The translations under genes were made by a program, and so were the position numbers. A stretch of DNA of 64,000 bases from contig NZ_JAHSPD010000001.1 in assembly GCF_020141465.1 (NCBI RefSeq), positions 248,001 to 312,000 of the forward strand, given 5' to 3'. This document shows, piece by piece, positions 9,659 through 31,191 of this stretch. Under the pieces are notes generated by a model. It was not told where the DNA came from. It searched no databases and saw nothing but the letters and a program-made list of their open reading frames with translations. This DNA is from Roseovarius carneus. Its GTDB lineage: Bacteria; Pseudomonadota; Alphaproteobacteria; Rhodobacterales; Rhodobacteraceae. How positions within the stretch are numbered: position 1 is the first letter of the stretch; every line of letters starts with the position of its first letter.

Positions 9659-9692
9659 TTTTGAGTATTTTTGCTAAGAAGAAGCCGGGTCA
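9659..9692 (+). repeat. Intergenic repeat element, copy a
   Basis: Copy of a short repeat with the shape TTTTGAGTATTTTTGC followed by TAAGAAGAAGCCGGGTCA. It fills the gap between era and DUF1491, and its terminal TCA is the era stop codon read on the minus strand. Four further copies lie at 23098, 26682, 29213 and 31158. Confidence 0.8.
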
Positions 9693-10598
9693 TGCATTGC
9701 CGTCCTTGAAGTTGAGACCCATCTCGGAATAGCGCTCGGCCTCTTCCAGCCAATTGGGACGCACTTTGATCTGTATGAATAGATGAACGCGGCGGCCCAG
9801 GAATTCCTCCAACTCGGTGCGGGCGGCGGTGGAGACGGATTTGATCGTCTCGCCCTTATGGCCCAGCACGATGCCTTTATGGCCGTCACGCATCACGTAG
9901 ATCAGCTGATCAATACGGGCAGAGCCATCTTTGCGTTCTTCCCAGTTTTCCGTCTCGACGGTGAGTTGGTAGGGCAGTTCCTGATGCAAGCGCAGGGTGA
10001 GCTTTTCGCGGGTGATCTCGGCGGCGATCATACGAAGGGGCAGATCAGCGATCTGATCTTCGGGGTAGAGCCATGGACCCTCGGGCAATTGCCCGGCCAG
10101 CCATTTGCGCAGATCGTCCACGCCGTGGCCGCGTTCGGCGGAGATCATGAAGGTCTCGGCAAAACCGAAGGCATCATTGAGTTTTTTCGTCAGGCTCAGG
10201 AGGGCGTCCGATTGCACTCGGTCGATCTTGTTGATGGCCAGCGCCACTTTGCGGCCCTTGGTGACGTCGCCAAGCCCCTCAAGGATGCGCTCCACCCCTT
10301 CTGTGACGCCGCGATGCGCCTCGACCAGAAGCACCACGACATCCGCGTCTGACGCCCCGCCCCAAGCGGCGGCCACCATCGCACGGTCCAAGCGGCGGCG
10401 CGGCTTGAAAAGGCCCGGCGTGTCGACAAACACCAGCTGTGCCTCGCCTTCAATCGCCACGCCGCGGATGCGCGCACGCGTGGTTTGCACCTTGTGTGTG
10501 ACGATGGAGACCTTGGCCCCCACCATGCGGTTCAAGAGCGTGGATTTGCCTGCGTTAGGCTCTCCGATCAAAGCAATGAAACCGGCGCGTGTGCTCAT
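9690..10598 (-). CDS. era: GTPase Era
   Basis: An essential Ras-like GTPase that binds 16S rRNA during 30S ribosome assembly. The 302-residue product has G1 (GEPNAGKST), G3 (DTPGLF) and G4 (NKID) in the first 130 residues, and a C-terminal KH domain with VLGHKGETIKSVS. It normally follows lepB and rnc directly; here a 235-base gap with an antisense small ORF separates it from rnc. Its stop codon forms the end of a repeat element. Confidence 0.97.
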   Translation of the reverse strand: MSTRAGFIALIGEPNAGKSTLLNRMVGAKVSIVTHKVQTTRARIRGVAIEGEAQLVFVDTPGLFKPRRRLDRAMVAAAWGGASDADVVVLLVEAHRGVTEGVERILEGLGDVTKGRKVALAINKIDRVQSDALLSLTKKLNDAFGFAETFMISAERGHGVDDLRKWLAGQLPEGPWLYPEDQIADLPLRMIAAEITREKLTLRLHQELPYQLTVETENWEERKDGSARIDQLIYVMRDGHKGIVLGHKGETIKSVSTAARTELEEFLGRRVHLFIQIKVRPNWLEEAERYSEMGLNFKDGNA

Positions 10599-10667
10599 GG
10601 GGGCCTCTTGGTTGGGGTGAGTGTAGCCCTAGCGCAATGCGGGCGCTCTGACCAGTGGCGGCGAGGG

Positions 10668-10684
10668 TGCGGCAGCCTGCCGCA
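10668..10684. promoter_or_regulatory. Perfect 7-3-7 dyad upstream of the 27-aa ORF
   Basis: TGCGGCA, three bases, TGCCGCA. It lies 63 bases upstream of the small ORF at 10747 and between it and era. It may be an operator; no T tract follows on either side, which argues against a terminator. Confidence 0.4.
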
Positions 10685-10746
10685 TGTGGTCGCGGCGCGG
10701 CGTGCTTATCTATGGATCAGAACACAAACCCATGGGAGGACGTATC

Positions 10747-10830
10747 ATGTTCAAAGGTCTTGGCGTATCAATAGCCCTTATCACAGCCGGCATGGTCGGC
10801 GCACCCGTAGCCCTTCTCGCGATAATGTAA
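10747..10830 (+). CDS. Small hydrophobic peptide, 27 aa
   Basis: An ATG preceded by GGGAGG (ending 7 bases upstream) opens a 27-codon frame that ends in TAA at 10828-10830. The product starts MFKGLGVSIALITAGMVG and is one hydrophobic segment after a single lysine, like a membrane-inserted mini-protein. It is antisense to the direction of the lepB-rnc-era genes and its stop lies 3 bases from the rnc stop. No family is recognised; reality rests on the ribosome site, the composition and a dyad upstream. Confidence 0.5.
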   Translation: MFKGLGVSIALITAGMVGAPVALLAIM

Positions 10831-10833
10831 GCG

Positions 10834-11514
10834 CTACTCTTCTACCCGGCTCAAAAGCGCTTTGGCGGCGGCTTGTTCCGCTTGGCGTTTTGATCCGGCG
10901 GAACACTTGGCCGTTTGCCCGTTTTCCAGCCGCGCCTCGATTGTAAAGCTTGGGGCGTGGTCAGGCCCCGTGCGGGCTGTCTCCACGTAATCGGGCGGGG
11001 ACAGGCCGCGGCCCTGCGCCCATTCCTGAAGCGCGGTTTTGGGATCGCGCGCATCTGCCTCAACATTACTGATCCGCGCGCCCCAGAGGCGCAGGATCAT
11101 CGCCCGTGCTGCCCCAAATCCTGCATCGGTATAGACGGCGGCGATCACCGCCTCCATCGCATCCCCCAGCAGCGCCTCTTTGCGCCGCCCGCCCGATAGC
11201 ATCTCGGAGCGGCCAAGCTTGAGCACTGCGCCCAGCTCAATCTCGCGGGCCACATCGGCGCAAGCCTCCTTGCGCACCAGCGCGTTGAAGCGCGGCGCCA
11301 GAAGGCCCTCGGGTGCACCGGGATCGGCAGCCAGCAGCGCCTCGGCCATCACCAGCCCAAGCACACGGTCGCCCAAAAACTCAAGCCGTTGATTATCGTC
11401 CCGCGTGGGCGAGGACATGGAGGCGTGCGTGACCGCCTGCACCAGAAGGGCGGGCTGGGCGAACTCGTGGCCCAGACGGGCGGCGAACGCCTTCATCTCG
11501 GCCGAAAGCTTCAC
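10834..11514 (-). CDS. rnc: Ribonuclease III
   Basis: A double-strand-specific endoribonuclease that processes rRNA precursors and structured mRNAs. The 226-residue product has the RNase III signature [18 protein letters not shown] (about residues 41-58) with the catalytic acidic residues, a second acidic site in [16 protein letters not shown], and a C-terminal dsRNA-binding domain ([13 protein letters not shown]). It overlaps lepB by four bases, showing co-transcription. Confidence 0.97.
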
Positions 11515-12347
11515 TCAAGAGCCTTGAAAAAACGATCCGCGCGCCACGTCCAGAAAAAGAGCATGGACCGCCCCGCCGAGGAGAAGATCAGACGATCCGC
11601 CCGACCAATGAGGTTCTCATAGGGCACGAACCCCACACCACGCACCTGAGGAGGAAAACGGCTATCGGTGGAATTGTCGCGATTGTCGCCCATGAAGAAA
11701 TAATGCCCCTCGGGCACGGTGAACACGCCGGTATTGTCGGAGCGTTGGTTGGTAATATTGAGGATGGCGTGGCTCTCGCCATTGGGCAGCGTCTCGATCT
11801 GGCGCGATTTGAGGCAGCTCGCCCCCTCGCCCACAACGCCGTTTTCGCAGCGCGGACGCGACCGCAAAGGCCCCTGCGCCTCGAACACTTCCTCGAAATT
11901 GCCCGCATCCTCAAGGCCGACCGGCACGTCATTGAGATGCAAGACACCATCCTTCATCTGCACTGTGTCGCCGGGCATGCCGACCACGCGCTTGATGAAA
12001 TCGGTGCCGTTCACAGGGTGGCGGAAGACGATGATATCGCCCTGTTTCGGCTCCCCGCCCCAAAAGCGCGTATTGTCACCATCGAGAAAGCCGCAGATAT
12101 CGGCCGCGTCGATGTTGATGCCCACACTTGCGATGCGGATCGACGGGCAGGACGCGTAGGAATAGCCGTAGGCCATCTTGTTCACGAAGAGAAAATCGCC
12201 GATCAGCAGCGTGTCCTTCATGGAGCCTGAAGGAATCCAGAACGGCTGAAAGAAAAGCGTGCGGAAAATTCCGGCCACGATGAGCGCATAGACGACTGTC
12301 TTGATCGTCTCCCAAATCGCACTGGGTTTCTTGGTCTCATCGGCCAT
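11511..12347 (-). CDS. lepB: Signal peptidase I
   Basis: Cleaves signal peptides of exported proteins at the periplasmic face of the inner membrane. The 278-residue protein has one N-terminal membrane helix (about residues 15-34), the nucleophile S42 in [10 protein letters not shown] and the general base K119 in [11 protein letters not shown], plus the [11 protein letters not shown] box near residue 218. The longer middle segment with a cysteine pair is normal in alphaproteobacteria. It is the first gene of lepB-rnc. Confidence 0.96.
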
Positions 12348-12450
12348 GGGGCACTCTCGGTTCGGGCTGGTTCAGGGTGCCCGCTTCATGCGGCGCGCAG
12401 GCTTTGGTGTCAAGCGCCGCGCCCCGTTCGTGGGCGCGGTATGCAGGGCC

Positions 12451-12849
12451 TCAGACAGGGCGGGCCTCGATCACGACAAAGGCCTGCGCCCATGGGTGAT
12501 CATCGGTGAGCGTGACGTGGATCACCGCGCGGTGGCCCTCCGGCGTCATCTCAGCCAAGCGCTCAGCGGCCCAGCCTGTGACCTCCATCACCGGCTGCCC
12601 GGTCTCCAGATTGCTCACCGCCATATCCTTCCACGCGATCCCCATGCGCAGGCCCGTGCCCAGCGCCTTGGAGCACGCCTCCTTCGCGGCCCAGCGTTTG
12701 GCATATGTGCCGGGTGTGTCCGCGCGTCGCTCGGCTTTCGCCTGTTCTGTGGGCGTGAAAACACGGTTGCGGAACCTATCGCCAAATCGCTCCAGCGTCC
12801 CGGCGATCCGCTCAATATTGGCCAGATCCGTGCCGATGCCGAGGATCAC
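12451..12849 (-). CDS. acpS: Holo-[acyl-carrier-protein] synthase
   Basis: Transfers 4'-phosphopantetheine from CoA to acyl carrier protein. At 132 residues it has the two signatures [15 protein letters not shown] (Mg-binding aspartate) and [16 protein letters not shown] (catalytic glutamate/lysine), and it ends with FVVIEARPV. It overlaps the upstream membrane-protein gene by four bases, which in turn overlaps pdxJ; pdxJ-acpS is a common pairing. Confidence 0.95.
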
Positions 12850-13277
12850 AGGCGGTCCTCGCGGGCGAGCCGTTCGGCGTTCTGCGCCCCAAGGCGGAAG
12901 AAGAACCAGTTGAAGACCAGATAGCCCAGCGCATAAATCCCAAGCAGGATCAGGAATTGCTGGCCCAGAAACGGCGCGACGGCGAGCTTTCCAAACTGCA
13001 CCATCAACGCGCCCGGCAGATAGGCCAGTGCCACGTTGAGCCCTGTCGCCAGTACGGTAAAAAGCGCGGCCAGCCGGAGGGATATGTTCGCGCCGGGCCG
13101 CTCACCATGGGTACGGTAATAATATTTGCCCTCAATCACGGCAGCGATCATCCCCGGCACCATCAGCTGCGCCGCCGATCCGATCAGTGTCTCGGTGTTG
13201 GCATTGACCACATGCACCAAAAGCGCGCCACCCAGCGCCATACCGATAAAGACCAGCGCATAGCGCACCCAGATCAT
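12846..13277 (-). CDS. Four-helix membrane protein (ABZJ_00895-like)
   Basis: A 143-residue integral membrane protein with four predicted helices (about residues 5-24, 34-52, 66-90 and 100-126) and a charged C-terminal tail. The pattern resembles the ABZJ_00895 family of unknown function; this match is from memory and moderate. It is tightly embedded, overlapping pdxJ by four bases on one side and acpS by four on the other, so it belongs to the pdxJ-acpS transcript. Confidence 0.75.
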
Positions 13278-14023
13278 GCGCCCGCCCTGCCCAGATCCAT
13301 TCTCCGGCGCATCTCTGCCATGGCGGGGCCAAGGCCTTGAAAGATCGCTTCGCCAATCAGGAAATGCCCGATATTGAGCTCGCGCACCTCAGGGATCGCG
13401 GCCACTGGGCCGACCGTGTCGAAGGTCAGACCATGGCCGATATGCACCTCAAGCCCGATCCCATGCGCATAGGTGCTGGCCTCGCGCAGGGCGGCCAATT
13501 CGGCGTCGCGCTCCGCCAACTTGCCCTCGTGGTGAAAGTCGCAATAGGCGCCGGAATGTAGCTCAACCACTTCCGCACCCACCCGTTTGGACGCATCAAT
13601 CTGCGCCCGGTCCGCGCCAATAAAGAGCGAAATCCGGCTCCCCGCCGCGCGCAAGGGTGCTATATACGTGGCCAGCCGATTGTCATCCGCCACCACGTCA
13701 AGGCCCCCTTCGGTCGTGCGCTCCTCGCGCTTTTCGGGCACGATACAGACCGCATGGGGCTTGTGACGCAGCGCAATCGCCTGCATCTCATCCGTGGCCG
13801 CCATCTCGAAGTTTAGCGGCACAGAAAGCTGCGCCATCAGCGCCTCGATATCAGCGTCCACGATATGGCGGCGGTCCTCGCGCAGATGCGCCGTGATCCC
13901 GTCCGCGCCTGCCGCCTCGGCCATCAGCGCCGCGCGCACAGGGTCCGGATCGCCGCCGCCGCGCGCGTTGCGCACTGTGGCCACGTGATCAATATTCACA
14001 CCCAATCGAAGTTTCTCGCTCAT
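13274..14023 (-). CDS. pdxJ: Pyridoxine 5'-phosphate synthase
   Basis: Condenses 3-amino-2-oxopropyl phosphate with 1-deoxyxylulose 5-phosphate to form pyridoxine phosphate. The 249-residue TIM-barrel begins MSEKLRLGVNIDHVATVRNARG, and carries the HLREDRRHI segment, the catalytic glutamate region VELHSGAYCD and the C-terminal NIGHFLIGEAIFQGL. It heads the pdxJ, membrane protein, acpS overlap series. Confidence 0.97.
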   Translation of the reverse strand: MSEKLRLGVNIDHVATVRNARGGGDPDPVRAALMAEAAGADGITAHLREDRRHIVDADIEALMAQLSVPLNFEMAATDEMQAIALRHKPHAVCIVPEKREERTTEGGLDVVADDNRLATYIAPLRAAGSRISLFIGADRAQIDASKRVGAEVVELHSGAYCDFHHEGKLAERDAELAALREASTYAHGIGLEVHIGHGLTFDTVGPVAAIPEVRELNIGHFLIGEAIFQGLGPAMAEMRRRMDLGRAGA

Positions 14024-14092
14024 TGGTCCGCCCTCCTTGCGCCTCAGCTCAACCTAGTGCCTTTGCAGCGCAGGGCGAAAGGGCCAAAATGC

Positions 14093-14746
14093 TCACGCAC
14101 CCGGCGGCGTATCCACCGCTGCTTTCTTCTTGAGCTTGAGCCATTTCGCCTTCAGCCGGACCTTGCGCCGCGCCTGATACACTTTGATTATCGGAAGCGA
14201 GATATAGTAAAAGATCAGCCCAAAAATCAGACCCGGAATGATCCCGCCCACCAAGTAGGGAAAAAATACATCCTGATAAAAGATGTTCAGACTGTCCCAA
14301 TGGGCCGTCTCATCCGAGAAAAGCGCCATGAAATTATGGCGCAAATCCTCGCCCGCATCCAAAAACTTACCGCCCAAAGAGCGATGCACCTCATCCGACA
14401 GCTCCCTTGGGCGGCCCAAAAGAAAATGCCCGGTCTGAAGCGACATGACCCCGATGGCAAAGAAGGTCAGCGGATTGCCCACGAATGTGGCCATCAACGC
14501 GGCCACGATATTGCCCCGCATCACTCGGGCCAAGATGACGGCAAGCACGAAATGCAGCCCGAAAAGCGGCGAGAAAGTCACGAAGACGCCCGCAAAAATG
14601 CCCCGCGCGATGCGGTGCGGCGGGTCCGGCAGGCGGCTGAGGCGGTGATTGATGTAACGGATTGCCCGCCCCCAGCCCCCTTTGGGCCAAAAGACAGAGC
14701 CCACGGTCCTTAGCACAGATCGTTTGTCTCTTCGTTTAAAGACCAC
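14093..14746 (-). CDS. DUF2062 family membrane protein
   Basis: A 217-residue protein of the DUF2062 family, which has a basic N-terminal segment, amphipathic entry (YINHRLSRLPDPPHRIARGI), and four hydrophobic segments in the middle and C-terminal half. It ends in a lysine-rich tail. The family is of unknown function and common in alphaproteobacteria next to rel. It begins 11 bases after the rel stop and is probably co-transcribed with it. Confidence 0.85.
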   Translation of the reverse strand: MVFKRRDKRSVLRTVGSVFWPKGGWGRAIRYINHRLSRLPDPPHRIARGIFAGVFVTFSPLFGLHFVLAVILARVMRGNIVAALMATFVGNPLTFFAIGVMSLQTGHFLLGRPRELSDEVHRSLGGKFLDAGEDLRHNFMALFSDETAHWDSLNIFYQDVFFPYLVGGIIPGLIFGLIFYYISLPIIKVYQARRKVRLKAKWLKLKKKAAVDTPPGA

Positions 14747-14757
14747 CCGTGCGGCTC

Positions 14758-16911
14758 CTAGCTTTGCGTTGCGCCGCCGCCCGCGACGCGGGCGAGATCT
14801 CGGTGACGGTCGACCGCTGCCACATCGCTATCTGCATTGAGCGCCGAAATGAGGCTGTGCAAATGCTCCACGTCACGCAATTCCACCTCCACCAGAAGGC
14901 GGTAGAAATCAGGCTTGCGATCCACAAACGTCAGATTGGAGATATTGGCCTTGCGCTCCCCTATCAAGGTGCAAATGCGGCCAAGCACGCCTGCGTCATT
15001 GCCGATGGTGATATCGAGCGCCACATCATAGGCCGCCGCATGGGTCCCCTCGTGCCAGCGCAGGTCGATCCAGCGCTCCGGCTGATCCTCATAGGAGGCG
15101 ATTGAGGGACAGTCGATCGTGTGAACCACGACGCCTTTGCCCCGGTAGGTGATACCGATGATGCGCTCACCGGGCAGAGGTTCGCAGCAGGGCGCGCGCT
15201 CAAAATGCTGACCATCGCTCAGGCCAATCACCGCACGGTCACGGCCCACCTCATCCACGCCTTGCGGGGCGAGATCGGGATAGACCGCCTGCACAACCTC
15301 GCGCGCGGTCAGCTCGGCCCGGCCCATCCGCGCCAAAAGCTCCTCGGCACCTTCAAGGCGCAGCGTACGCGCGGCCGTGCCTAGAGTTTTTTCGCTGGCG
15401 CGTTTGCCGACATGCTCAAACGCCGCGCGCGCCAATTCGCGGCCCAGCTTGATATACCGCCCGCGGTCCAACTCGCGCAGGGCGCGGCGGATGGCTGTCT
15501 TGGCCTTGCCTGTGGTGGCGATGTCGAGCCATGTGGATTGCGGGGTTTGCCCATCGGCGATGATCACCTCAACAGATTGCCCGTTCTTGATCCGCGTCCA
15601 GAGCGGCACGCGCATCCCGTCGATCTTGGCACCCACCACCGCATTGCCGATCCGCGTGTGGATCGCATAGGCGAAATCCAGAGGCGTGGCGCCGCGGGGC
15701 AGCTTGATCACATCACCCTTGGGGGTGAAGCAAAAAACCTTGTCGGTATACATCTCCAGCTTGACCGCTTCGAGAAAATCCTCGTGATCTTCCTCCACGT
15801 CGAACTGTTCGGTGAGGGTGTTGATCCATTTGGCCGGATCAACGGCGAAGGGATTTTCCGTGCGCACCCCGTCGCGATAAGACCAATGCGCGGCCACGCC
15901 CGTTTCGGCCACGTCATGCATCTGCCGCGTGCGAATCTGCACCTCCACCCGCTTGCCATCACGCCCCGACACCGTGGTGTGGATCGAGCGGTAGCCGTTC
16001 GACTTGGGCTGGCTGATATAATCCTTGAACCGCCCCGGCACGGCCCGCCAGCGTTGGTGAATGGCCCCGAGCACCGCATAGCAATCGGCCTCTGTCTGGG
16101 TAACGATACGAAAGCCATATATGTCGGAGAGCCGCGAAAAGCCCATCTCCTTTTCCTGCATCTTACGCCAGATCGAATAGGGCTTCTTCGCGCGGCCCAA
16201 AATCTCCGCCTCGATGTCGCCCTTTTTCAGTTCCTTGCGCATATCGCCGGTGATCCGCTCGATCACATCATCGGATTCGCGCTGAAGCGTGATGAAACGG
16301 CGCATGATCGATGCGCGCGCCTCGGGGTTGATCACGCGAAAGGCCAGATCCTCCAGCTCTTCACGCATCCATTGCATCCCCATGCGGCCCGCAAGCGGCG
16401 CGAAGATATCCATCGTCTCGCGGGCTTTCTTGACCTGCTTTTCGGGGCGCATCGCCTTGATCGTGCGCATGTTATGAAGCCGGTCGGCCAGCTTCACGAG
16501 GATCACGCGCAAGTCTTTGGACATGGCGATGAAGAGCTTGCGGAAATTCTCGGCCTGTTTGGTCTCGGAACTGCTGAGCTGAAGGTTGGTCAGCTTGGTC
16601 ACACCATCGACCAATTCGGCGATCTCATCGCCAAACCTGCGCTGCACCTCGACGTAAGAGGCGCGCGTGTCCTCGATTGTGTCGTGCAAAAGGGCGGTGA
16701 TGATCGTGGCATCGTCCAGACGCTGATCGGCCAGAATGGCGGCAACGGCGACGGGATGCGTGAAATACGGCTCGCCGGAATAGCGCATCTGGCCTTCATG
16801 CATTTCACCGCCATAGGCGAAGGCGGCGCGCAGAAGGGTTTCGTCGGTGCGTGGGTTGTAGCTGCGCACGCGGGCGATCAGATCATCGACCGTGAAGGGA
16901 TCACCGCCCAT
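14758..16911 (-). CDS. rel: Bifunctional (p)ppGpp synthase/hydrolase (Rel/SpoT)
   Basis: Makes and degrades the stringent-response alarmone. The 717-residue product has an HD hydrolase domain (residues about 20-170) with HP at the start and the intact HDTIED metal motif, a synthetase domain (about 230-350) with RFKDYISQPKSNGYRSIHT, a TGS domain near 390-450 and a C-terminal ACT domain. The RFKD variant marks the bifunctional Mg-type class rather than RelA. It lies just downstream of rpoZ (25 bases), the usual rpoZ-rel pair. Confidence 0.96.
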   Translation of the reverse strand: MGGDPFTVDDLIARVRSYNPRTDETLLRAAFAYGGEMHEGQMRYSGEPYFTHPVAVAAILADQRLDDATIITALLHDTIEDTRASYVEVQRRFGDEIAELVDGVTKLTNLQLSSSETKQAENFRKLFIAMSKDLRVILVKLADRLHNMRTIKAMRPEKQVKKARETMDIFAPLAGRMGMQWMREELEDLAFRVINPEARASIMRRFITLQRESDDVIERITGDMRKELKKGDIEAEILGRAKKPYSIWRKMQEKEMGFSRLSDIYGFRIVTQTEADCYAVLGAIHQRWRAVPGRFKDYISQPKSNGYRSIHTTVSGRDGKRVEVQIRTRQMHDVAETGVAAHWSYRDGVRTENPFAVDPAKWINTLTEQFDVEEDHEDFLEAVKLEMYTDKVFCFTPKGDVIKLPRGATPLDFAYAIHTRIGNAVVGAKIDGMRVPLWTRIKNGQSVEVIIADGQTPQSTWLDIATTGKAKTAIRRALRELDRGRYIKLGRELARAAFEHVGKRASEKTLGTAARTLRLEGAEELLARMGRAELTAREVVQAVYPDLAPQGVDEVGRDRAVIGLSDGQHFERAPCCEPLPGERIIGITYRGKGVVVHTIDCPSIASYEDQPERWIDLRWHEGTHAAAYDVALDITIGNDAGVLGRICTLIGERKANISNLTFVDRKPDFYRLLVEVELRDVEHLHSLISALNADSDVAAVDRHRDLARVAGGGATQS

Positions 16912-16936
16912 GCGCCCGCGCCAAACCGGGCGGGGC

Positions 16937-17290
16937 TCAGCCCTGCCCTTGGGCTTTCATAAGCTCGCGCAGAAGCCGCTCTTCAGACATATCGTCTTCG
17001 GCCGGCCTGTCCGACTCGCCACCCATAAGGAGGGCCATGTTGTCTTCTTCGGCCTCATCCACTTCGATCTCGGTCTGGTTGGATTCGATCAGGCGCTCAC
17101 GCAGGTCTTCAGCGCTTTGCGTCTCTTCGGCGATCTCGCGCAGGGCAACAACAGGGTTCTTGTCGTTGTCGCGGTCCACGGTCAGAGCGGAGCCTGCCGA
17201 AATCTCGCGGGCGCGGTGCGCGGCCAACATCACCAGGTCGAACCGGTTGGGAACTTTGTCAACGCAATCTTCAGTGGTAACGCGGGCCAT
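16937..17290 (-). CDS. rpoZ: RNA polymerase omega subunit
   Basis: A small RNA polymerase subunit that binds beta-prime and is part of a ppGpp site. At 117 residues it begins [30 protein letters not shown], the diagnostic omega N-terminus, and has a long acidic C-terminal tail normal for alphaproteobacteria. A CGGAGG ribosome site precedes the ATG. It is first in the rpoZ-rel-DUF2062 run. Confidence 0.96.
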
Positions 17291-17955: not shown

Positions 17956-18098
17956 ACACCCATCCTAGCCTATTGCCAGCGCAGACCTATAACTTTAAGT
18001 CCAAAACATCCACGCTACCGGGGCTTCCCCACTACTCAAACCGATCCTTGCCCTTTCGAAATATTCGCAGATTTGGCAAAATAAGAAGGGCTTTTTGT

Positions 18099-23097: not shown

Positions 23098-23136
23098 TTT
23101 TGGGTATTTATGCCAAGAAAAAACAACGGGTGGTCA
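23098..23136 (+). repeat. Intergenic repeat element, copy b
   Basis: Copy with TTTTGGGTATTTATGCC then AAGAAAAAACAACGGG and a TCA end. It sits between the deformylase-like gene and fmt, in the antisense orientation to both. Confidence 0.75.
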
Positions 23137-23662: not shown

Positions 23663-23667
23663 GCGCG

Positions 23668-24186
23668 CTACTCCCGCGCCATTTCGCGTTTGAGCTTTTG
23701 CATCCGGCGCGTGATCAGTTGGCGCTTCATGGGCCCCAGATATTCGATAAAAAGCTTGCCGTTAAGGTGGTCAATCTCGTGCTGCACGCAGGTCGCCCAG
23801 AGCCCGTCAAAGCCGCTGCTCTGCTCCGTGCCCGCCTCGTCGATCCAGCGGAGTTCAATCTCGGCAGGCCGCGTGACGTCGCCGAATTGCTCGGGGATCG
23901 ACAGGCACCCTTCCTCATAGACATTGAGCGTGTCCGACACGGCCGTGATCACCGGGTTGAACATCACCATCGGGCGCGGCGCCTCACCCTCTTCCTTCAC
24001 ACAATCGAGCACGATCAGGCGGCTCAGCACGCCCACCTGTGGTGCCGCAAGACCGATACCCGGCGCGGCATACATCGTCTCAAGCATATCATCGGCAAGC
24101 TGGCGCAAATCGCCCGTGACATCGTCAACGGGGGGGCAGAGCTTTTTCAGCCGTGGATCGGGGTGTATCAGGATCGGCCTTTTCAT
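23668..24186 (-). CDS. def: Peptide deformylase
   Basis: Removes the N-formyl group from new proteins. The 172-residue product has all three motifs: GIGLAAPQ (Q50), EEGCLSIPEQ with the metal cysteine C94, and QHEIDH with H136, E137 and H140. It starts MKRPILIHPDPRLKKLCPPV. It is the first of the def, deformylase-like, fmt minus-strand series and is divergent from the aminotransferase gene at 24290. Confidence 0.97.
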   Translation of the reverse strand: MKRPILIHPDPRLKKLCPPVDDVTGDLRQLADDMLETMYAAPGIGLAAPQVGVLSRLIVLDCVKEEGEAPRPMVMFNPVITAVSDTLNVYEEGCLSIPEQFGDVTRPAEIELRWIDEAGTEQSSGFDGLWATCVQHEIDHLNGKLFIEYLGPMKRQLITRRMQKLKREMARE

Positions 24187-24289
24187 GGCCGTTCATGTAG
24201 GGCAACGCGACGCGCGGCGCAAGACAGCCCCCTTGCACCTGCCGACCAGTCAGGTAGCTTGCCCCGCGCAATCCAAGGAGCACTCCCAC

Positions 24290-25459
24290 ATGAATTTCGA
24301 CGAGATCATCGACCGTGTCGGCACCCATTCCAACAAATGGGATGACATGGAGGAGAAATACGGCGTCTCGCCCGACGATGGCATTTCGATGTGGGTGGCA
24401 GACATGGATTTCCGCCCACCTGCCTGCGTATCGGCGGCGCTGGGGCGGATGCAGGCGCATGGGATCTACGGATATTACGGCAATGAGGACAGCTATCGCA
24501 GCGCGATCCAGTGGTGGATGAAAGAGCGCCATAGCTGGAGCCTTGAGAAGGCGGATATCTTTACGACCCATGGCCTCGTCAATGGCACGGGCATGTGCGT
24601 CGATGCGTTTAGCGCGCCCGGCGATGGGATCGTGCTTTTTACGCCTGTGTATCATGCGTTTGCCCGGGTCATCAAAGCGGCAGGGCGTGAGGTGGTCGAA
24701 TGTCCCCTCAAGCAGGTCGATGGCCGCTACACGATGGATTTCGACGCCTATGACGCGCAGATGACGGGCAAGGAGACGATGCTTATCTTCTGCTCACCTC
24801 ATAATCCCGGTGGCCGCGTCTGGAGCCGTGAAGAGCTTGAGCAGGTCGCGGATTTCGCCCGGCGGCATGACCTCGTTCTGGTCTCTGACGAGATCCACCA
24901 CGATCTGGTGATGCCCGGCGCGCGGCACACCGCCATGGCCGTTCTGGACGGGATCGCCGACCGTCTCGTGATGATGACGGCACCCACCAAGACATTCAAT
25001 ATCGCGGGCGCCCATTCGGGCAATGTTATCATTGCCGATGACACCTTGCGCGCGCGCTTTGCCCAGCGGATGGCCGCCCTTGGCCTCTCGCCCAACTCCT
25101 TCGGGATCGAGATGACCGAGGCCGCCTATTCCCCAGAAGGGGCTGCTTGGGTCGACGCGCTCTGCGCTTATCTCGATGGCAATCGGCAAGTGTTCGACAC
25201 AGGCGTCAACGCCATTCCGGGCCTGCGCTCCATGCCGCTAGAGGCCACATATCTGGCGTGGGTGGACCTGAGCGGCACCGGCATGAGCGATGCGGAGTTT
25301 ACCAAACGGGTGGAGGGCACAGCACGCATTGCCGCCAACCATGGTCCGACATTCGGCACAGGCGGCGAAGGGCATCTACGCTTCAATCTGGCCACGCCCC
25401 GCGCCCGCGTGAAAGAGGCGGTGAGCCGCTTGGCAGAGGCTTTTTCAGACCTGCAATAA
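24290..25459 (+). CDS. MalY/PatB-family PLP aminotransferase or C-S lyase
   Basis: A 389-residue fold-type I PLP enzyme. The start at 24290 follows CCAAGGAG and gives MNFDEIIDRVGTHSNKWDDMEEKYG, the entry typical of the MalY/PatB group of cystathionine beta-lyases. The PLP lysine is in MMTAPTKTFNIAGAHSGN, and the VADMDF and SPHNPGGRVWS motifs are present. Likely reaction: cleavage of cystathionine or cysteine conjugates. It is a single gene divergent from def. Confidence 0.88.
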   Translation: MNFDEIIDRVGTHSNKWDDMEEKYGVSPDDGISMWVADMDFRPPACVSAALGRMQAHGIYGYYGNEDSYRSAIQWWMKERHSWSLEKADIFTTHGLVNGTGMCVDAFSAPGDGIVLFTPVYHAFARVIKAAGREVVECPLKQVDGRYTMDFDAYDAQMTGKETMLIFCSPHNPGGRVWSREELEQVADFARRHDLVLVSDEIHHDLVMPGARHTAMAVLDGIADRLVMMTAPTKTFNIAGAHSGNVIIADDTLRARFAQRMAALGLSPNSFGIEMTEAAYSPEGAAWVDALCAYLDGNRQVFDTGVNAIPGLRSMPLEATYLAWVDLSGTGMSDAEFTKRVEGTARIAANHGPTFGTGGEGHLRFNLATPRARVKEAVSRLAEAFSDLQ

Positions 25460-25464
25460 CCCGC

Positions 25465-25821
25465 TCAGCTATAGTCTTCGATCAGACCCATGGGCGCATC
25501 GCTGTGGCGCTCGAAATCCACAGGCTGCGTGCCTGAGGCTTCGGTCATGCGCTTATACTCAAACTGCGTCTCGCCCGCCTCCTGCGAGGACGCCACGATC
25601 AAACAGCGCGACATATGCCGCGCCCCGTCATAAAGATCGACCAACCCACGAATTTGCGAAGCCCGCTCCGGTTCAAGGGAAAAGCCACCATCCCAGGCGC
25701 GCATGATGGGATGCCAGCTGCCATCGGGCATTTCCACGCGCAGCTTGTGGCTCCGAAGGGCGGCAGCTTTACGCGCACGGTCCAGCCCATCCTGAATGTC
25801 CTGAGGCAGATACGTATCCAT
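25465..25821 (-). CDS. Conserved hypothetical protein, 118 aa
   Basis: Not recognised. The ATG at 25821, preceded by AGGGA, gives 118 residues starting MDTYLPQDIQDGLDRARKA. The visible parts are an N-terminal helix, a LRVEMPDGSWHPIMRAWDGGFSLE strand-like segment, and RGLVDLYDGARHMSRCLIVASSQ. A beta-rich PilZ-like fold is conceivable but not shown. There is no signal peptide or membrane segment. It is convergent with the aminotransferase gene. Confidence 0.65.
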   Translation of the reverse strand: MDTYLPQDIQDGLDRARKAAALRSHKLRVEMPDGSWHPIMRAWDGGFSLEPERASQIRGLVDLYDGARHMSRCLIVASSQEAGETQFEYKRMTEASGTQPVDFERHSDAPMGLIEDYS

Positions 25822-25905
25822 CACCGATTCCCTATCCCATTATAAGGATCAGAGTGCGAATAATTTTATTTCAATCAACATCATATTTGTCGACAGATTG
25901 TTTCG

Positions 25906-26676
25906 TTACCCTTTTGCCACTTTGGGGCGCAACACGTGCGGCATCTTGGGATCATAAAGCGCGCTATCCTTGAAATCGCGAACCTCCCCCAGAACCGGCC
26001 CCACCATGATCAGCGCCGTGCGCGTGATCTTCTCATCGCGCACCTTGCCGTGAATATCCGCAAGCGTGCCCCGGATGAACATCTGATCCGGCCAGCCCAC
26101 ACGGTATGCCACGACCACAGGACACGCCGCCCCGTAATGCGGGCTCAGCACGCGCACGATTTCGCGCAGGTTCCGAACGCCTAGGTGAATGGCCAATGTC
26201 GCGCCCGTGCGGGCAAAATTCTCCAGCGTCTCATGCTCAGGCATCGACGTGGATTTCATCGACACCCGCGTAAGGATAATCGACTGCGCCACCTCCGGCA
26301 CGGTCAGTTCCTGCCCCAACGCCGCCGCCGCCGCCGCATAGGCGGGCACACCGGGGATGATCTCATAGCCAATCCCATCCACGCGCAGCCGCCGGATCTG
26401 CTCCGCAATCGCGCCATAAAGCGACGGATCGCCCGAATGGACCCGCGCCACATCCTCGCCGCGCGCGTGGGCAGCGACAATCTCTGCATGGGTGTCATCA
26501 AGCGTCATCGCAGCCGTATCCATTACCCGCGCGCCTTGGGGTGCACAGGCGACCACCTCCGCAGGCACAAGACTGCCCGCATAAAGACATACAGGGCACT
26601 CCCCGATGACGCGCTCCGCCTTCTTGGTCAAAAGCTCCGGATCACCCGGCCCCGCCCCGATAAAATAAACCGTCAC
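25906..26676 (-). CDS. cobM: Precorrin-4 C11-methyltransferase
   Basis: SAM-dependent methyltransferase of corrin ring synthesis. The product starts at a GTG (26676), giving VTVYFIGAGPGDPELLTKKA with the tetrapyrrole methylase phosphate-type loop, 256 residues. The VHSGDPSLYGAIAEQ, PGVPAYAAAAA and VAYRVGWPDQ segments are typical of CobM/CbiF. It is the last gene of the minus-strand cob operon. Its ribosome-binding region (AAGAAGGG, 8 bases before the GTG) is part of repeat copy c. Confidence 0.94.
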   Translation of the reverse strand: MTVYFIGAGPGDPELLTKKAERVIGECPVCLYAGSLVPAEVVACAPQGARVMDTAAMTLDDTHAEIVAAHARGEDVARVHSGDPSLYGAIAEQIRRLRVDGIGYEIIPGVPAYAAAAAALGQELTVPEVAQSIILTRVSMKSTSMPEHETLENFARTGATLAIHLGVRNLREIVRVLSPHYGAACPVVVAYRVGWPDQMFIRGTLADIHGKVRDEKITRTALIMVGPVLGEVRDFKDSALYDPKMPHVLRPKVAKG

Positions 26677-26681
26677 AGCGT

Positions 26682-26710
26682 CCGCCCTTCTTCTTTGTCC
26701 AAAATACTCA
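26682..26710 (-). repeat. Intergenic repeat element, copy c
   Basis: On the minus strand TGAGTATTTTGGACA then AAGAAGAAGGGCGG. The leading TGA is the stop codon of the cbiG/cobJ gene, and the purine-rich end provides the ribosome-binding region of cobM. Confidence 0.75.
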
Positions 26711-28513
26711 TACCCCCGCCGGCCCCGCCAAATCGCCGTCGATCTTGCGCGCATATCCGCGCGGCGTGAACATGCGCGGCCCCTCACCAAGCGCGGCCAG
26801 CCTGGAATTGCTGGACCCCACCAGAACAACGGTCAGCATATCGACCTCATCCACCTCTAAAGCATCAAGGCGGCGATAGCGGATATGCTCCTCGGGTCGG
26901 CCCAGATTGCTGGCCAGCATCACGGGCGTATCCGCCGGGCGGTGCTTGAGCAAAATCTCCCGCGCCTCGGCCAGAAGCGTCCGCCGCGTTTTGGAGACTG
27001 GGTTATAGAACGCGATCACGAAATCCCCCTCCGCCGCCGCATGCAGCCGCCGGATAATGTCATCGCGTGGGGTCAGCAAATCCGACAGCGATATGGTGCA
27101 AAAATCATGCCCCAAAGGCGCGCCCGCCCGCGCCGCCGCGCCCTGCAAGGCCGACACACCCGGCGTGCAGACCACATCGACCCGCCGGGCCGCATCACTC
27201 ACACCCATTGCGTCGGGCGTGCGCGACAAAAGCTCGAACACAAGCGCCCCCATCGCGTAAATCCCCGCATCGCCCGAACATATGAGCGCCACGTTGCGCC
27301 CCTCTGCCGCCCGCTCCAGCGCATAGCGGCACCGCGCCTCCTCGCCCCCCAGCGGAAAGTCAGACCGCGCTTTGCCCGCAGCCAAAGGCCCCAGCAGATC
27401 AATGTAGAGCCCGTAACCCACCAATTCTTCAGCATCCGCGATCAGACGCGAGGCCTCGGGCGTGCGCCAGCTCGCCTGACCGGGGCCGATGCCCACCACG
27501 CTCAGCCGCCCCCGCGCGCGGCCCTTGAGGCTCACGAGCGGCGCATCGCTGCGCGTCAGCGCGCATGTCGCGACCGCGTTCTTGCGCTTGGGGATCACCA
27601 GATCGCCCCCCATCGCCAACGCCGCTCCCTCCGAGACACCGTGGCAGCCAACTTCGGCAAAAACCACCTCGGACGGAGTGGCGAGCCGCGCCGCCTGCGC
27701 CTCCAACTCTTCAGCTGTAAAGAGCCGCAGCGGCACGCCCAATCGCGCGGCAAGCTGGTTCACCGCAGGCTCATCCGCCTTGAGATCAATCGTCGCCACG
27801 CATGCCACAGCCCCTGCCGCAATCCCGGCCTCGGCCAAGGTCTCCTGAACCAAATCCCAAAGTACCTCCGGCTCTGCATCGCGCGCACATCCCACGCCCA
27901 GCGCAAACCGCTGCGGATGATAGACCAGCCGCGCCTCACTGCCATGCTGGAGCTCCTCGCTCACACATAGCGCAACCGCTCCGCCGGTATCCTCAAGGCC
28001 AAAGATGTTCTCGCCCTCGATGCGCATGCCAGCCCCCGACAGCATCATCACCATAGCGCCCTTGGCATCCTCGGGATTGGCCAGGCGATAGCCTTCGGGC
28101 GGCGCATCCAAAGCCGCCCCCATCGCCACATCGCCCGCCGTGGTCACAGCCGCCACAGCCCCCAAGCCTTCGGCGATCTGCACCGCAAGCCGGTTCGCCC
28201 CCCGGTGCCCGCCCAGAAGTGGCACCACCACAGCACCATCATCGCTGACCGAAACGACAGCAGGCTCTGTGCGCTTATCGGACAGGATCGGGGCCACCGC
28301 CCGGATCAAAATTCCCGACGCACAAACGCCGACAACCGGCACGCCTGCCGCAAAAAGATCACGCGCATGATCCAGCGCATTGGGGAAAAATGCCGCCGCA
28401 TCAGCCACCCGGCCCTCGCGTCCATGCACATCCGCGCCGATCAGGGCCGCCACACGGTGCGCCACCGCCTCGCCAGAGGCGCTCAACGCCAGAACAACAG
28501 GTCTCACAGCCAT
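26708..28513 (-). CDS. cobJ: CbiG-CobJ fusion: precorrin-3B C17-methyltransferase
   Basis: A 601-residue fusion. Residues about 1-335 resemble CbiG/CobE (GVCASGILIRAVAP, PLLGGHRGANRLA, then the CobE-like ALGVGCARDAEPEVLWDLV and EVGCHGVSEGAAL). Residues about 335-600 form a tetrapyrrole methylase (LSVVGIGPGQASWRTPEA, CSGDAGIYAMGALVFELL, PGVSALQGAAARAGAPLGHDFC), the CobJ domain that methylates C17 with ring contraction. CbiG opens the anaerobic pathway delta-lactone; in aerobic-type clusters the N-part may only serve as CobE. It overlaps cobI by ten bases. Confidence 0.92.
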   Translation of the reverse strand: MAVRPVVLALSASGEAVAHRVAALIGADVHGREGRVADAAAFFPNALDHARDLFAAGVPVVGVCASGILIRAVAPILSDKRTEPAVVSVSDDGAVVVPLLGGHRGANRLAVQIAEGLGAVAAVTTAGDVAMGAALDAPPEGYRLANPEDAKGAMVMMLSGAGMRIEGENIFGLEDTGGAVALCVSEELQHGSEARLVYHPQRFALGVGCARDAEPEVLWDLVQETLAEAGIAAGAVACVATIDLKADEPAVNQLAARLGVPLRLFTAEELEAQAARLATPSEVVFAEVGCHGVSEGAALAMGGDLVIPKRKNAVATCALTRSDAPLVSLKGRARGRLSVVGIGPGQASWRTPEASRLIADAEELVGYGLYIDLLGPLAAGKARSDFPLGGEEARCRYALERAAEGRNVALICSGDAGIYAMGALVFELLSRTPDAMGVSDAARRVDVVCTPGVSALQGAAARAGAPLGHDFCTISLSDLLTPRDDIIRRLHAAAEGDFVIAFYNPVSKTRRTLLAEAREILLKHRPADTPVMLASNLGRPEEHIRYRRLDALEVDEVDMLTVVLVGSSNSRLAALGEGPRMFTPRGYARKIDGDLAGPAGV

Positions 28514-29205
28514 GGATCGGCCCCTTTCGTGAGCAGGATCATCGAAAAATAAGGTGCCGCCTCAGGTGCCTCGGAGAGCGGGCACACCACCTCTTCAGGC
28601 AGGCTCGCACGCTCCACATAAACCGCGCGGCTCATCAGGCCGAGCCCCTCGATCACGCCGCGTATCTTGGCCAAATGCCGCCCCACCTTCATGATCACAA
28701 CGCTCTCGGCCCCCTCGATGCGCCCCCGCAGCTCCGCCTCAGGCAAAGGCCCCGGCAGCACGGTCAAACGCTCGTTACGCGCACAAAGCGGCATCCCCGC
28801 TCGCGCCGCACAGGCCGTCACCGACGTTACCCCTGGCACGATCTCAACCTCAAACCGATCCGAGAGCCGCGCGTAAAGATACATGAACGAGCCATAGAAA
28901 AACGGATCGCCCTCACACAGACAAATCACATCATCACCTGCCTCCAAGGCCTGTGCGATCTGCGCGGCTCCCAGATCATAGGCCGCCTGCGCAGGGGCCC
29001 GCTCGGGCGTCATCGGCACATCCATCACAATCTCGCGCGCCCCCGGCGCAATGACCCCAGCCGCGATGGCCCGCGCAAAGCTGGGCGCACCCGCGAGCGC
29101 GGGATACGCCACAACCCGCGCACCGGAAATCAAGCGGTGCGCTTTGAATGTCATCAGGTCCGGATCACCGGGGCCAAGGCCCACACCGTAAAGAACACCG
29201 CTCAC
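28504..29205 (-). CDS. cobI: Precorrin-2 C20-methyltransferase
   Basis: Adds the C20 methyl group to precorrin-2, the committed step to cobalamin. The start was set at the GTG at 29205, giving VSGVLYGVGLGPGDPDLMT (233 residues), since the frame upstream only offers a TTG in repeat copy d. The CEGDPFFYGSFMYLY and VPGVTSVTACAARAG motifs are present. It runs into the cbiG/cobJ start with a ten-base overlap. Confidence 0.93.
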   Translation of the reverse strand: MSGVLYGVGLGPGDPDLMTFKAHRLISGARVVAYPALAGAPSFARAIAAGVIAPGAREIVMDVPMTPERAPAQAAYDLGAAQIAQALEAGDDVICLCEGDPFFYGSFMYLYARLSDRFEVEIVPGVTSVTACAARAGMPLCARNERLTVLPGPLPEAELRGRIEGAESVVIMKVGRHLAKIRGVIEGLGLMSRAVYVERASLPEEVVCPLSEAPEAAPYFSMILLTKGADPWL

Positions 29206-29212
29206 CGCCGCC

Positions 29213-29243
29213 CCCCGCTTTCTTCTTTGCAAAAATACTCAAA
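29213..29243 (-). repeat. Intergenic repeat element, copy d
   Basis: On the minus strand TTTGAGTATTTTTGC then AAAGAAGAAAGCGGGG. It lies between cobL and cobI, with its purine-rich end directly upstream of the cobI GTG start. Confidence 0.75.
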
Positions 29244-29266
29244 TTGCGCCGCGGCTCTGTGCGCCC

Positions 29267-30478
29267 TCATCGCTTGACGAGGCTCCATTGCGTCACCGGC
29301 ATCAAGGGCCGCCAACCGGTGAGCCCGCCCACAGGCTCCGCGCGGTTCACCATCAGCTTCACCAACTGCCCACCATGGCGCTTGTGCAGCTCCAACAGCA
29401 GGGCCTCACTCTCCAGCGTCACCGCATTGCACACCAGCCGCCCCAAGGGGCGCAGCGCCGCCCATGCGGCGTCAAACGTCGCCATGCTCAAGCCTCCACC
29501 GATGAAAATCGCGTCCGGCGGCGCGAGGCCCGCCAAGGCCTCCGGCACGCGCCCGTCTACCAACTCAAGCTTCGGCGCACCCAGCGCCAGCGCATTGGCC
29601 GCCGCAAGCGCGCGCCTGTCGCTGCGTGGCTCGATCCCGATCGCGCGGGCATAGCGCGCGGCGCGCATCCACTCCACCGCGACCGATCCACAGCCCGTGC
29701 CGATGTCCCAGAGCAACGCCCCCCGCATCGGCATCAGCTTTGCCAGCGTGGCTGCGCGCACCTCTTGCTTGGTCATGGTCCCATCATGCTGGAAAAGATC
29801 ATCTGACAGGCCCGGCACACGCGGCATCAACGCCGCATCAGGTGCCGCGATACACTCGACCGCCAATGTATTGAACGCGGGCACGACATGATCCCAGCTC
29901 TCGGCCAACCCATCAAACCGCTGTTCCCCCGCGCCGCCCATCGCGGCCAGAACGGTCATCCGCGACGCGCCAAAGCCGCGCGCGGCCAGAAAGGCCGCGA
30001 TCTGTCCCGGCGTCTCGGCCCCCGTGGTCAGAATCAAAAGCCGCGCATCGGGCTGAATAAAGGCGATCATCTGCTCCACCGGGCGGCCATGCACGGTGAG
30101 CGTTTCCACATCCGCGATGCTCCAGCCCATGCGCGCGGAGGCCAGCTGAAACGCGCTGAGCTGCGGATGATACGTGATCTCGGCTGCCGGGATCGCGCGG
30201 CCAATACGCGCGCCGACCGAGAACCACAAAGGATCACCCGTGGCCAGAACCACAACGCGGCGCCCCTGATACCCCCTCAGCACATCAACCAGCGCATCAA
30301 AGGGCGAAGGCCATGCCACACGCTCAGCCTCAACCGCGCCGGAAAGCTGGTGATGGCGGTCCCCACCGATGATAATCTCAGCCGCCTCGACCACGGCGCG
30401 GGTGGCGGGGACAAGCCCGTCCATACCGTCCTCGCCAATGCCCACGATATGCAGCCACGGTGCGCGCGCCGCGCTCAT
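29267..30478 (-). CDS. cobL: Precorrin-6Y C5,15-methyltransferase (decarboxylating)
   Basis: A bifunctional corrin enzyme of 403 residues. The N-half (about 1-210) is a CbiE tetrapyrrole methylase (LHIVGIGEDGMDGL, ATGDPLWFSVGARIG). The C-half (about 215-403) is CbiT with the SAM site LLWDIGTGCGSVAVEWMR and GGGLSM. Together they methylate C5 and C15 and remove the C12 acetate carboxyl group. It overlaps cobH by four bases. Confidence 0.95.
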   Translation of the reverse strand: MSAARAPWLHIVGIGEDGMDGLVPATRAVVEAAEIIIGGDRHHQLSGAVEAERVAWPSPFDALVDVLRGYQGRRVVVLATGDPLWFSVGARIGRAIPAAEITYHPQLSAFQLASARMGWSIADVETLTVHGRPVEQMIAFIQPDARLLILTTGAETPGQIAAFLAARGFGASRMTVLAAMGGAGEQRFDGLAESWDHVVPAFNTLAVECIAAPDAALMPRVPGLSDDLFQHDGTMTKQEVRAATLAKLMPMRGALLWDIGTGCGSVAVEWMRAARYARAIGIEPRSDRRALAAANALALGAPKLELVDGRVPEALAGLAPPDAIFIGGGLSMATFDAAWAALRPLGRLVCNAVTLESEALLLELHKRHGGQLVKLMVNRAEPVGGLTGWRPLMPVTQWSLVKR

Positions 30479-31110
30479 GTGTCCAACTCCGGCAACCCGA
30501 CGGCCAAAGCATTCACCGCAGCCGAGGCCATGGCCGACCCACCCCGCCGCCCGCGCAGCGCCACAAATTCACAGCCGCGCGGGTTCTCGGCCAGTTCGGC
30601 CTTGCTCTCGGCGGCGCCGACAAACCCCACCGGAAAGCCAAGGATCACGGCAGGTTTCGGCGCGCCTTGATCGATCAGTTCCAACAGATGAAAAAGCGCC
30701 GTGGGCGCGTTACCAATGGCCACCACAGCCCCCTCCAGATGATCCGCCCAAAGTTCCACCGCCGCCGCAGAGCGGGTGTTGTCGATGCCCGCCGCGATCC
30801 CCGGCGTGCGCGGGTCGTTGAGGGTCACGATCACCTCATTGCCTTTGAGATAGCGCCGGATGATGCCCGCGCCGACCATCTCGCAATCGCATAGGATCGT
30901 CGCCCCACCTGCGATGGCCGCATGCCCCGCCGCATAGGCCCCGTCGCTGAACGCGATCCGGTCCGCGATCTCGACCATACCGCAAGCGTGGATAAGGCGC
31001 ACGGCCATCCTCTCCATCCCTGCATCGAACCGCTCCAGCCGCGCCTCGGCGCGCACGGTGGCGAAGCTCGCGGCATAGATCGCGGATGGATTTTTCTCAT
31101 ATGGGCGCAC
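30475..31110 (-). CDS. cobH: Precorrin-8X methylmutase
   Basis: Moves the C11 methyl group to C12, giving hydrogenobyrinic acid. The 211-residue product has the catalytic histidine in LIHACGMVEIADRI and the family segments DCEMVGAGIIRR, NAPTALFHLLELI and GFPVGFVGAAESK. It lies downstream of cbiX across repeat copy e and overlaps cobL by four bases. Confidence 0.96.
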   Translation of the reverse strand: MRPYEKNPSAIYAASFATVRAEARLERFDAGMERMAVRLIHACGMVEIADRIAFSDGAYAAGHAAIAGGATILCDCEMVGAGIIRRYLKGNEVIVTLNDPRTPGIAAGIDNTRSAAAVELWADHLEGAVVAIGNAPTALFHLLELIDQGAPKPAVILGFPVGFVGAAESKAELAENPRGCEFVALRGRRGGSAMASAAVNALAVGLPELDT

Positions 31111-31157
31111 GGGCGGGCCTTCTTGGGTTAGGCGGTGTGGGTGGAGCGGATGTCGGC

Positions 31158-31191
31158 TTGGGGTATTTTTGCCAAGAAAAAGCCGGGGTCA
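31158..31191 (+). repeat. Intergenic repeat element, copy e
   Basis: CTTGGGGTATTTTTGCC then AAGAAAAAGCCGGGGTCA. It lies between cbiX and cobH; its terminal TCA is the cbiX stop codon on the minus strand. Confidence 0.8.

Follow-up and report, generated by a model that had tools for sequence, protein, structure and literature searches.

Short sequences that recur at gene ends are known from several bacterial systems. The repetitive extragenic palindromic (REP) sequences of enterobacteria and Pseudomonas, together with their REP doublets forming hairpins (REPINs) and bacterial interspersed mosaic elements (BIMEs), are short, modular and dispersed, lie between genes at 3' ends in both orientations and sometimes as inverted pairs, and each repeat folds into a hairpin headed by a conserved GTAG-type sequence. 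DNA uptake sequences (DUS) and uptake signal sequences (USS), found in the Neisseriaceae and Pasteurellaceae, carry a lineage-specific spelling around a shared core, form inverted pairs at gene ends and number one or two thousand per genome, or about one per kb. Further points of comparison are the FtsK-orienting polar sequences (KOPS), such as that of Lactococcus lactis, other architecture-imparting sequences, and intrinsic (bidirectional) terminators. Here we describe a family of elements of about 21 bases at gene ends in Roseovarius carneus and its relatives. It came to light as five copies in the 64-kb stretch analysed here, referred to as the window (positions 248001-312000 of a 2.99 Mb contig; genome size, 3.05 Mb).

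The element resembles each of these systems in part. As with REP-type sequences, its copies are short repeats at intergenic gene ends (97 of the 99 tabulated copies are intergenic, and 7 of these 97 occupy divergent gaps). Unlike REP, REPIN and BIME sequences, it occurs without a RAYT-type gene (REP-associated tyrosine transposase) in five genomes tested, its core is neither a hairpin nor headed by GTAG, and it has a free spacer of about 3 bases, old positions and orientations in the operon examined, and genome-wide dialects. The lineage-specific spelling recalls DUS and USS, but in the patterns searched the element reaches no more than about 140 copies per genome and it is bipartite. With KOPS it shares a bias to the G-rich (leading) strand in this genome; it differs in its length of about 21 bases and its intergenic location, in that its KOPS-like half is barely skewed, and in that the bias lies at the level of composition in three other genomes. 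Some copies have a hairpin beside T-rich and A-rich stretches and convergent gaps are favoured, as for intrinsic terminators; in contrast to these, the element is a fixed bipartite sequence, many copies lack a clear adjacent hairpin, and copies occur inside operons. The genome-wide dialects suggest that some cell component reads these elements, and our leading, though tentative, reading is that a putative trans-acting factor with drifting specificity recognises each of them as a site of about 21 bp.

A bipartite element at gene ends

The general pattern GRRTATTTNNNNNAAGAARAW was found at 110 places in the genome when up to 2 mismatches were allowed, as compared with 3 for the reversed control, and its exact form at 86 places with no control hit. 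A single 21-mer searched with up to 3 mismatches yielded 39 places (24 on the + strand and 15 on the - strand) and again none in the control, so the genome-wide counts are above chance. Exact copies are present also between 2.44 and 2.98 Mb of the contig, and the window, with 5 copies in its 64 kb, is somewhat richer in the element than the genome as a whole, in which 64 kb hold about 2 on average. The copy set used for R. carneus comprises 101 of the 110 places, including 81 of the 86 exact ones.

Each copy consists of GRRTATTT, a free spacer of 3 (+/-1) bases and a purine-rich half. A slightly stricter pattern, searched with 2 to 9 free bases allowed, had 82 exact places, and the spacer measured 3 bases in 73, 4 in seven (copy c of the window included) and 2 in two, with no exact place at any other length. 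The 78 exact non-coding copies fall into sub-types by their prefix: a GAG sub-type, GAG-TATTT-nnn-C(T/A/C)-AAGAAGAA, with 41 copies; a GGG sub-type, GGG-TATTT-nnn-CC-AAGAAAAA, with 12; 24 GGA copies, 21 of which read GGA-TATTT-nnn-GC-AAGAAGA(A/T) while the remaining 3 end in CCAAGAAAAA; and a single GAA copy. The 5' neighbour is a module in its own right, namely TTT, CGCCTCCGGCGG, GCCTTCGGCGA, or a C-rich linker preceded by a longer hairpin. A consensus of the core, built from 30 copies, contained neither a GTAG head nor an inverted repeat, and the hairpin, where present, lies outside the core. Pairing within the element was considered and rejected, as positions 2-3 and 12-13, compared by eye, showed no consistent pairing across dialects. 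Nine close pairs were observed in the genome, eight of them convergent; a convergent mixed pair, alpha facing beta, is located at contig positions 247939-247988 and starts 62 bases before the window. One copy, at contig positions 875402-875422 (locus L006), appears to start a reading frame (ATGAGTATTTTTGCCAAGAAGAAG, MSIFAKKK) in a stretch marked as coding by our gene caller.

Positions relative to genes were tabulated for 99 of the 101 copies (a coding copy with 2 mismatches and a copy without a downstream gene were omitted), using as gene caller a simple codon-usage script whose starts and small genes are uncertain; two of the 99 are coding. Of the 97 intergenic copies, convergent gaps hold 30, divergent gaps 7 and tandem gaps 60, of which 35 read along the genes and 25 against them. 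For comparison, divergent gaps account for 1920 and convergent gaps for 657 of the 5598 intergenic bases of the window, and for 4089 and 4003, respectively, of 21387 in loci fetched from the same genome, which are centred on the copies. Divergent gaps are thus avoided and convergent gaps favoured, strongly by the first yardstick and moderately by the second. The sequence-only reading had proposed a repeat of operon gaps; the repeat family is genome-wide, but a specificity for operon gaps was not borne out, since 60 copies lie in tandem, 30 in convergent and 7 in divergent gaps, which makes the gene end the common factor. The proposed enrichment beside stop codons is real mostly in the sense of nearness: of the 55 tabulated copies that face the 3' end of a gene on the opposite strand, 18 finish no more than 10 nt from its stop, and overlap with the stop was seen in 1 of the 65 copies that lie downstream of a gene and in its direction (copy c is outside this set owing to its spacer).

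The same reading had considered a stable mRNA processing or ribosome-related signal. Such a sense-strand signal is disfavoured in this genome because copies lying against the genes match the consensus equally well, as evidenced by a mean distance of 0.36 for the 25 tandem-against copies and 0.55 for the 65 copies following a gene in sense. Three other genomes (G012, G025 and G026) leave more room for a role in RNA. In these, 29 of 30 sampled loci gave a row, 4 of the 29 were called coding, and the 25 intergenic copies comprise 10 convergent, 10 tandem along, 4 tandem against and 1 divergent; 20 of the 25 follow a gene in sense, 10 of those being convergent, where either orientation counts as such.

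With respect to the chromosome strand, the element lies on the strand that is G-rich at third codon positions nearby in 78 of the 97 R. carneus copies, as compared with 325 of 528 (62%) for equally G-rich intergenic 21-mers, and the sign of this third-position skew holds for genes of either strand. KOPS are mentioned in general terms in the article PMC7901474. Alignment with the skew, estimated from coarser samples, was found for 48 of 78, 25 of 38 and 17 of 28 copies in three other genomes, which is near the level of composition and shows that the strand bias is not general beyond composition; this test covered 44 of the 54 places of genome G195, 85 of the 87 of G196 (off-dialect places excluded) and 35 exact chromosome-contig places of G026.

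Dialects and old positions in the Rhodobacteraceae

The order sample comprised 195 genomes, all of them of one family, the Rhodobacteraceae, by the taxonomy table. A first pattern was present in 55 of the 195, with no hit for the reversed control and up to 140 copies in one genome, and a second pattern, GRTATTTNNNNNMVGAWGAA, in 128 of the 195, with 3 control hits overall and up to 137 copies in one genome. A dialect that neither pattern captures may account for the genomes with few copies or none. Of 240 class genomes searched, the 237 that belong to other families gave 43 hits in 40 genomes, at most 2 in each, against 22 for the reversed control. A viral origin was set aside, two patterns having matched 2 and 2 stretches in the viral collection. 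A location restricted to chromosomes was likewise dropped after a B-type query from G026 matched 40 plasmid records, many of them of Rhodobacteraceae and a few from outside the group (best E 4e-6, many matches weak); an alpha-type query matched 9 plasmid records, all weakly. In one complete genome all 54 places are on the main chromosome. In four plasmid records examined, the match lies in a stretch without a listed gene, the gene table being incomplete. The megaplasmid of Ruegeria pomeroyi DSS-3 carries a pair in convergent orientation (GAGTATTT-TGA-ACCAGAAAGAAG and its partner), flanked on both sides by hairpin-like stretches, and a Cereibacter sphaeroides plasmid carries a degenerate copy with TATTC.

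Each tabulated genome fixes its own spelling of the second half, in some cases as two or three sub-types, while the spacer remains largely free. In five genomes (a set that excludes G138, from the same survey) the two bases after the spacer are near-fixed and genome-specific, being AC in 19/20, CA in 14/14, CC in 14/15, GC in 18/18 and CC in 18/20 places, and the three spacer bases vary within each genome; the near-fixed bases are not an artefact of the search because its pattern left all five positions open. Pseudooceanicola spongiae has one dialect, GTATTTnnnGCAAGATGA, in 84 of 87 places, and also seven convergent pairs with a start spacing of 37-40 nt, and Litoreibacter halocynthiae has AATATTTnnnCCAAGATGA in 30 of 34. 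In Maritimibacter sp. NAT7, a metagenome-assembled genome (MAG) with 129 places of which 100 are listed, prefix and second half change together to give two sub-types, prefix GG pairing with AAGAGAAGA in 66 of the 100 and prefix GA with GACAGAAGA in 25. A second Maritimibacter has GACCGAAGA where NAT7 has GACAGAAGA, among the 16 of its 96 places that are listed. Pseudohalocynthiibacter is mixed, with ATATTTnnnGCAAGAAGA in 20 of 54 and GTATTTnnnGAAAGATGA and others in the remainder.

The age of the positions was assessed at the cobalamin operon, which holds three of the window's copies. We used 80 loci that surround a CobL-type gene. Their records bear the names of Rhodobacterales genera or of MAGs (one that of Alphaproteobacteria alone), and some are close relatives of each other. 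A broad regular expression gave 44 hits over 954 kb of these loci against 1 for the reversed control, and 37 of the 44 fell within the 11% that is intergenic. Orthologous gaps were scored for the half-site RRTATTT only, for which shuffled gaps gave 0.7 to 3.8%. In the CbiX-CobH gap, the site of copy e, the half-site was present in reverse in 32 of 58 records and in no record forward; in the CobL-CobI gap, the site of copy d, it was forward in 13 of 36 and never reverse. The CobH-CobL gap had it forward in 6 of 44 and reverse in none, and the CobJ-CobM gap had 7 forward and 1 reverse among 59. Copies c, d and e of the window are oriented as in the orthologous gaps. Since orientation is kept in these gaps, old sites appear to have been re-spelled in place. 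The copy in the cobalamin gap matches a main dialect of its genome in 4 of the 5 named genomes with listed places (L106, L132, L138 and L131); a further genome, L113 (146 places), was counted and left out of this comparison of fit.

Between two close congeners, 18 of 20 copies from one species have a partner among 20 of the other. The 30 bases 5' of the element differ at 7 of 540 positions, as compared with 23/540, 91/2160 and 49/2160 downstream or further out. The suggestion that the repeat spread into gaps is made doubtful, as far as a recent process is concerned, by this sharing and by the single orientation kept across many genera in orthologous gaps.

The cobalamin gaps contain other repeats as well. 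A second intergenic repeat, in the CobJ-CobM and CobL-CobI gaps, often begins with a GACGCT-like start and continues with a short variable hairpin-like part and then GCCCC-CCC-CC-TCCC (GCGCCCCACCCGCCATCCCG and variants). It was found 30 times in 2.2 Mb, and its reversed control not once; it lies on the + strand of the locus in the 23 listed cases, and was seen in L092, L094, L099, L109, L120, L129, L140, L146, L156, L158, L161 and others (e.g., L129:9270 and L129:6723). The CobH-CobL gaps of L120, L140, L141 and L143 and those of L092, L094, L097, L100, L106, L110 and L123 hold further AT-rich palindromes, namely paired TTTTGTACAAAATGGG-like sequences in Litoreibacter-type records and hairpins of GATTTTTCGCGAAAAATC / AAAATTCGGCGAATTTT-like sequence in several others.

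A candidate recognition factor and its rivals

We infer from the dialects and the old positions that a factor, expected only in the Rhodobacteraceae, may contact GRRTATTT and the purine-rich half, which lie about one helical turn apart, and largely ignore the 3 bases between them. Its specificity would have drifted by lineage, giving the sites of one genome their common spelling, and genomes with two or three sub-types would then hold two or three variants of the factor. The location of sites at gene ends, some of them beside a hairpin, suggests boundary marks; the bound factor might stop or shield transcription (or replication) at gene ends, or organise the chromosome. An action on DNA is preferred because copies in this genome freely take either orientation with respect to the genes; those against the genes are kept as well as those in sense, which speaks for the factor reading. 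An RNA role retains some weight because part of the copies adjoin hairpins and because of the sense tendency in three other genomes. A two-segment factor with drifted specificity accounts for both the fixed bipartite sequence and the old, re-spelled positions. In its broadest form, the proposal is that of a chromosome-wide recognition code in the Rhodobacteraceae, with a DNA- or RNA-reading factor, tens to more than 100 gene-end sites per genome, specificity and sites changing together between lineages, and species dialects written on long-fixed sites; we consider this possible and put it forward with more reserve.

Several observations weigh against a drifting factor. None was found, and none of our sequence-based tests shows binding. 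The strand bias of R. carneus had no match in the three other genomes, and copies c and d point opposite to copy e inside one operon. Re-spelling in place was shown at the cobalamin operon only, and in one genome (L115) the cobalamin-gap copy fits neither dialect among the 16 of 96 places listed. The absence of core changes between the congeners is conditioned on the search pattern. The spacer of G138 is less free, GTG or TTG filling it in 17 of 20 places, a pattern to be expected from recent copying. An old mobile repeat that split into lineages could also give rise to three sub-types within a genome.

The rival that survives best, doubtful in our view, is a REP- or BIME-like repeat, in which a transposase formerly dispersed small palindromic or mosaic units that were kept at gene ends as the least harmful places, the convergent pairs being the mobile unit and the single copies its remnants. 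The convergent pairs of R. carneus and P. spongiae would fit such an origin, as would the joining of modular 5' parts to different cores, the intergenic location away from divergent gaps and the few spacer spellings of G138. However, a search for PF01797 (Y1_Tnp, the RAYT-type transposase) was negative in all 5 copy-rich genomes and positive in 5 of 14 control genomes, and dispersal by a RAYT was rejected on this ground. Moreover, if a unit had been copied, the same three central bases would not be expected to vary in dialect after dialect, and positions and orientation are kept over many genera at the one operon examined. Copying of a mobile repeat is a poor account of a frame that stays fixed around free bases in several dialects, and of old positions with a lineage-specific spelling.

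Also unlikely is a two-sided transcription terminator, in which the 5' hairpin followed by TATTT would stop forward transcripts and TTCTTCTT on the other strand would stop reverse ones. The folding test, for which mononucleotide shuffles (keeping single-base content only) served as the control, lends it some support: 14 of the 15 copies with a C-rich 5' part folded better just upstream than shuffles (z below -1.5), their longer hairpins differing in sequence, and some copies have a hairpin downstream of AAGAAGAA. The preference for convergent gaps and the tendency to follow genes in sense elsewhere agree with this function. Yet among TTT-type copies just 4 of 40 passed the test, and the CCTCCGGCG and CCTTCGGCG types (both short CCT(C/T)CGGCG types) passed it in 2 of 20 and 1 of 8 copies, respectively. 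In the 83 of 97 copies for which a strong stem is predicted, the T-rich stretch lies anywhere from 0 to 30 nt away from it. Neither a fixed 21-base sequence nor dialects are needed for intrinsic termination, and copies lie inside what appears to be a single operon of cobalamin genes.

An improbable alternative is a self-promoting DNA tag, comparable to the uptake sequences of Neisseria, whereby transformation or gene transfer agents would prefer tagged fragments, the tag would accumulate at neutral places, and its spelling would follow the receptor. The dialects around a common core, the position at gene ends and the inverted pairs are reminiscent of such sequences; the density, about one copy per 30 kb (86 exact and 110 relaxed places over 3.05 Mb), is far below that of known uptake sequences, and we know of no uptake or packaging preference for the element sequence. 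Counting for the tag, gene transfer agent genes are said, in the abstract of PMC9836097, to be particularly well conserved in Rhodobacterales. Finally, an FtsK guide sequence or other leading-strand motif, suggested by the 78 of 97 copies that follow the local skew and by the presence in the second half of GAAGAAG, the guide motif of L. lactis, is hardly credible and was rejected. In samples of four genomes, GAAGAAG alone is barely strand-biased (101 to 82, against 132 to 46 for GGGNAGGG), and the element does not show its polarity generally.

The copies of the window and their meaning for the family

All five copies of the sequence-only reading were recovered from the sequence at their positions, in gaps between same-direction genes that measure 43, 109, 31, 61 and 78 nt for a to e by our own gene caller. 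The genes flanking them are all on the minus strand, with c and d reading along the genes and a, b and e against them, in agreement with the two orientations noted earlier. Gene identities were taken from Pfam, and Cob names that go beyond the Pfam family are our own. Copy a (9659-9692, core 9663-9683, + strand) is of the alpha sub-type, TTTTGAGTATTTTTGCTAAGAAGAAGCCGGGTCA, has 0 mismatches to the nearest sub-type consensus, and lies between an Era-like gene, whose stop codon forms its end, and a DUF1491 gene. Copy b (23098-23136, core 23102-23122, + strand) is of the beta sub-type with the core GGGTATTTATGCCAAGAAAAA and 0 mismatches, between a peptide deformylase (def-like) gene and a formyltransferase (fmt-like) gene. 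The remaining three are all within gaps of the cobalamin operon. Copy c (26682-26710, core 26688-26709, - strand; alpha sub-type, GAGTATTTTGGACAAAGAAGAA, 1 mismatch) has a spacer 1 base longer than the standard and overlaps the TGA of the upstream CbiG/TP-methylase gene. Copy d (29213-29243, core 29220-29240, - strand) is of the alpha sub-type with the core GAGTATTTTTGCAAAGAAGAA and 1 mismatch, and copy e (31158-31191, core 31161-31181, + strand) is of the beta sub-type with the core GGGTATTTTTGCCAAGAAAAA and 0 mismatches, its end being the stop codon of the CbiX gene. The coincidence with stop codons thus stands for copies a, c and e; it does not extend to a general rule, being found in a minority of copies genome-wide. 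A possible sixth copy at 18066-18090 was not counted, its best fit having 5 mismatches in 18 scored bases, a value equalled or bettered by 5 of 388 random stretches of the window. No match to Rfam covariance models was found in window positions 8000-33000 at E values up to 1. The window also contains CAT/GAT-rich low-complexity repeats (histidine/aspartate-type codons) at 31263-31368, in the CbiX-like gene, and at 42581-42697, in another gene.

A search of the open literature, judged by title and the start of the abstract, gave no paper on the element, and a search with the literal sequence gave unrelated papers only; the family of gene-end elements is apparently undescribed. The Rhodobacteraceae include the marine roseobacters. 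If the dialects reflect a co-evolving factor, they would constitute a natural experiment in the joint change of a recognition protein and about a hundred target sites, and would offer a direct route to the factor and a test of what marks gene ends in these bacteria. Even if the element is a fossil repeat, it is relevant to the prediction of terminators and to the reading of operon gaps in the family.

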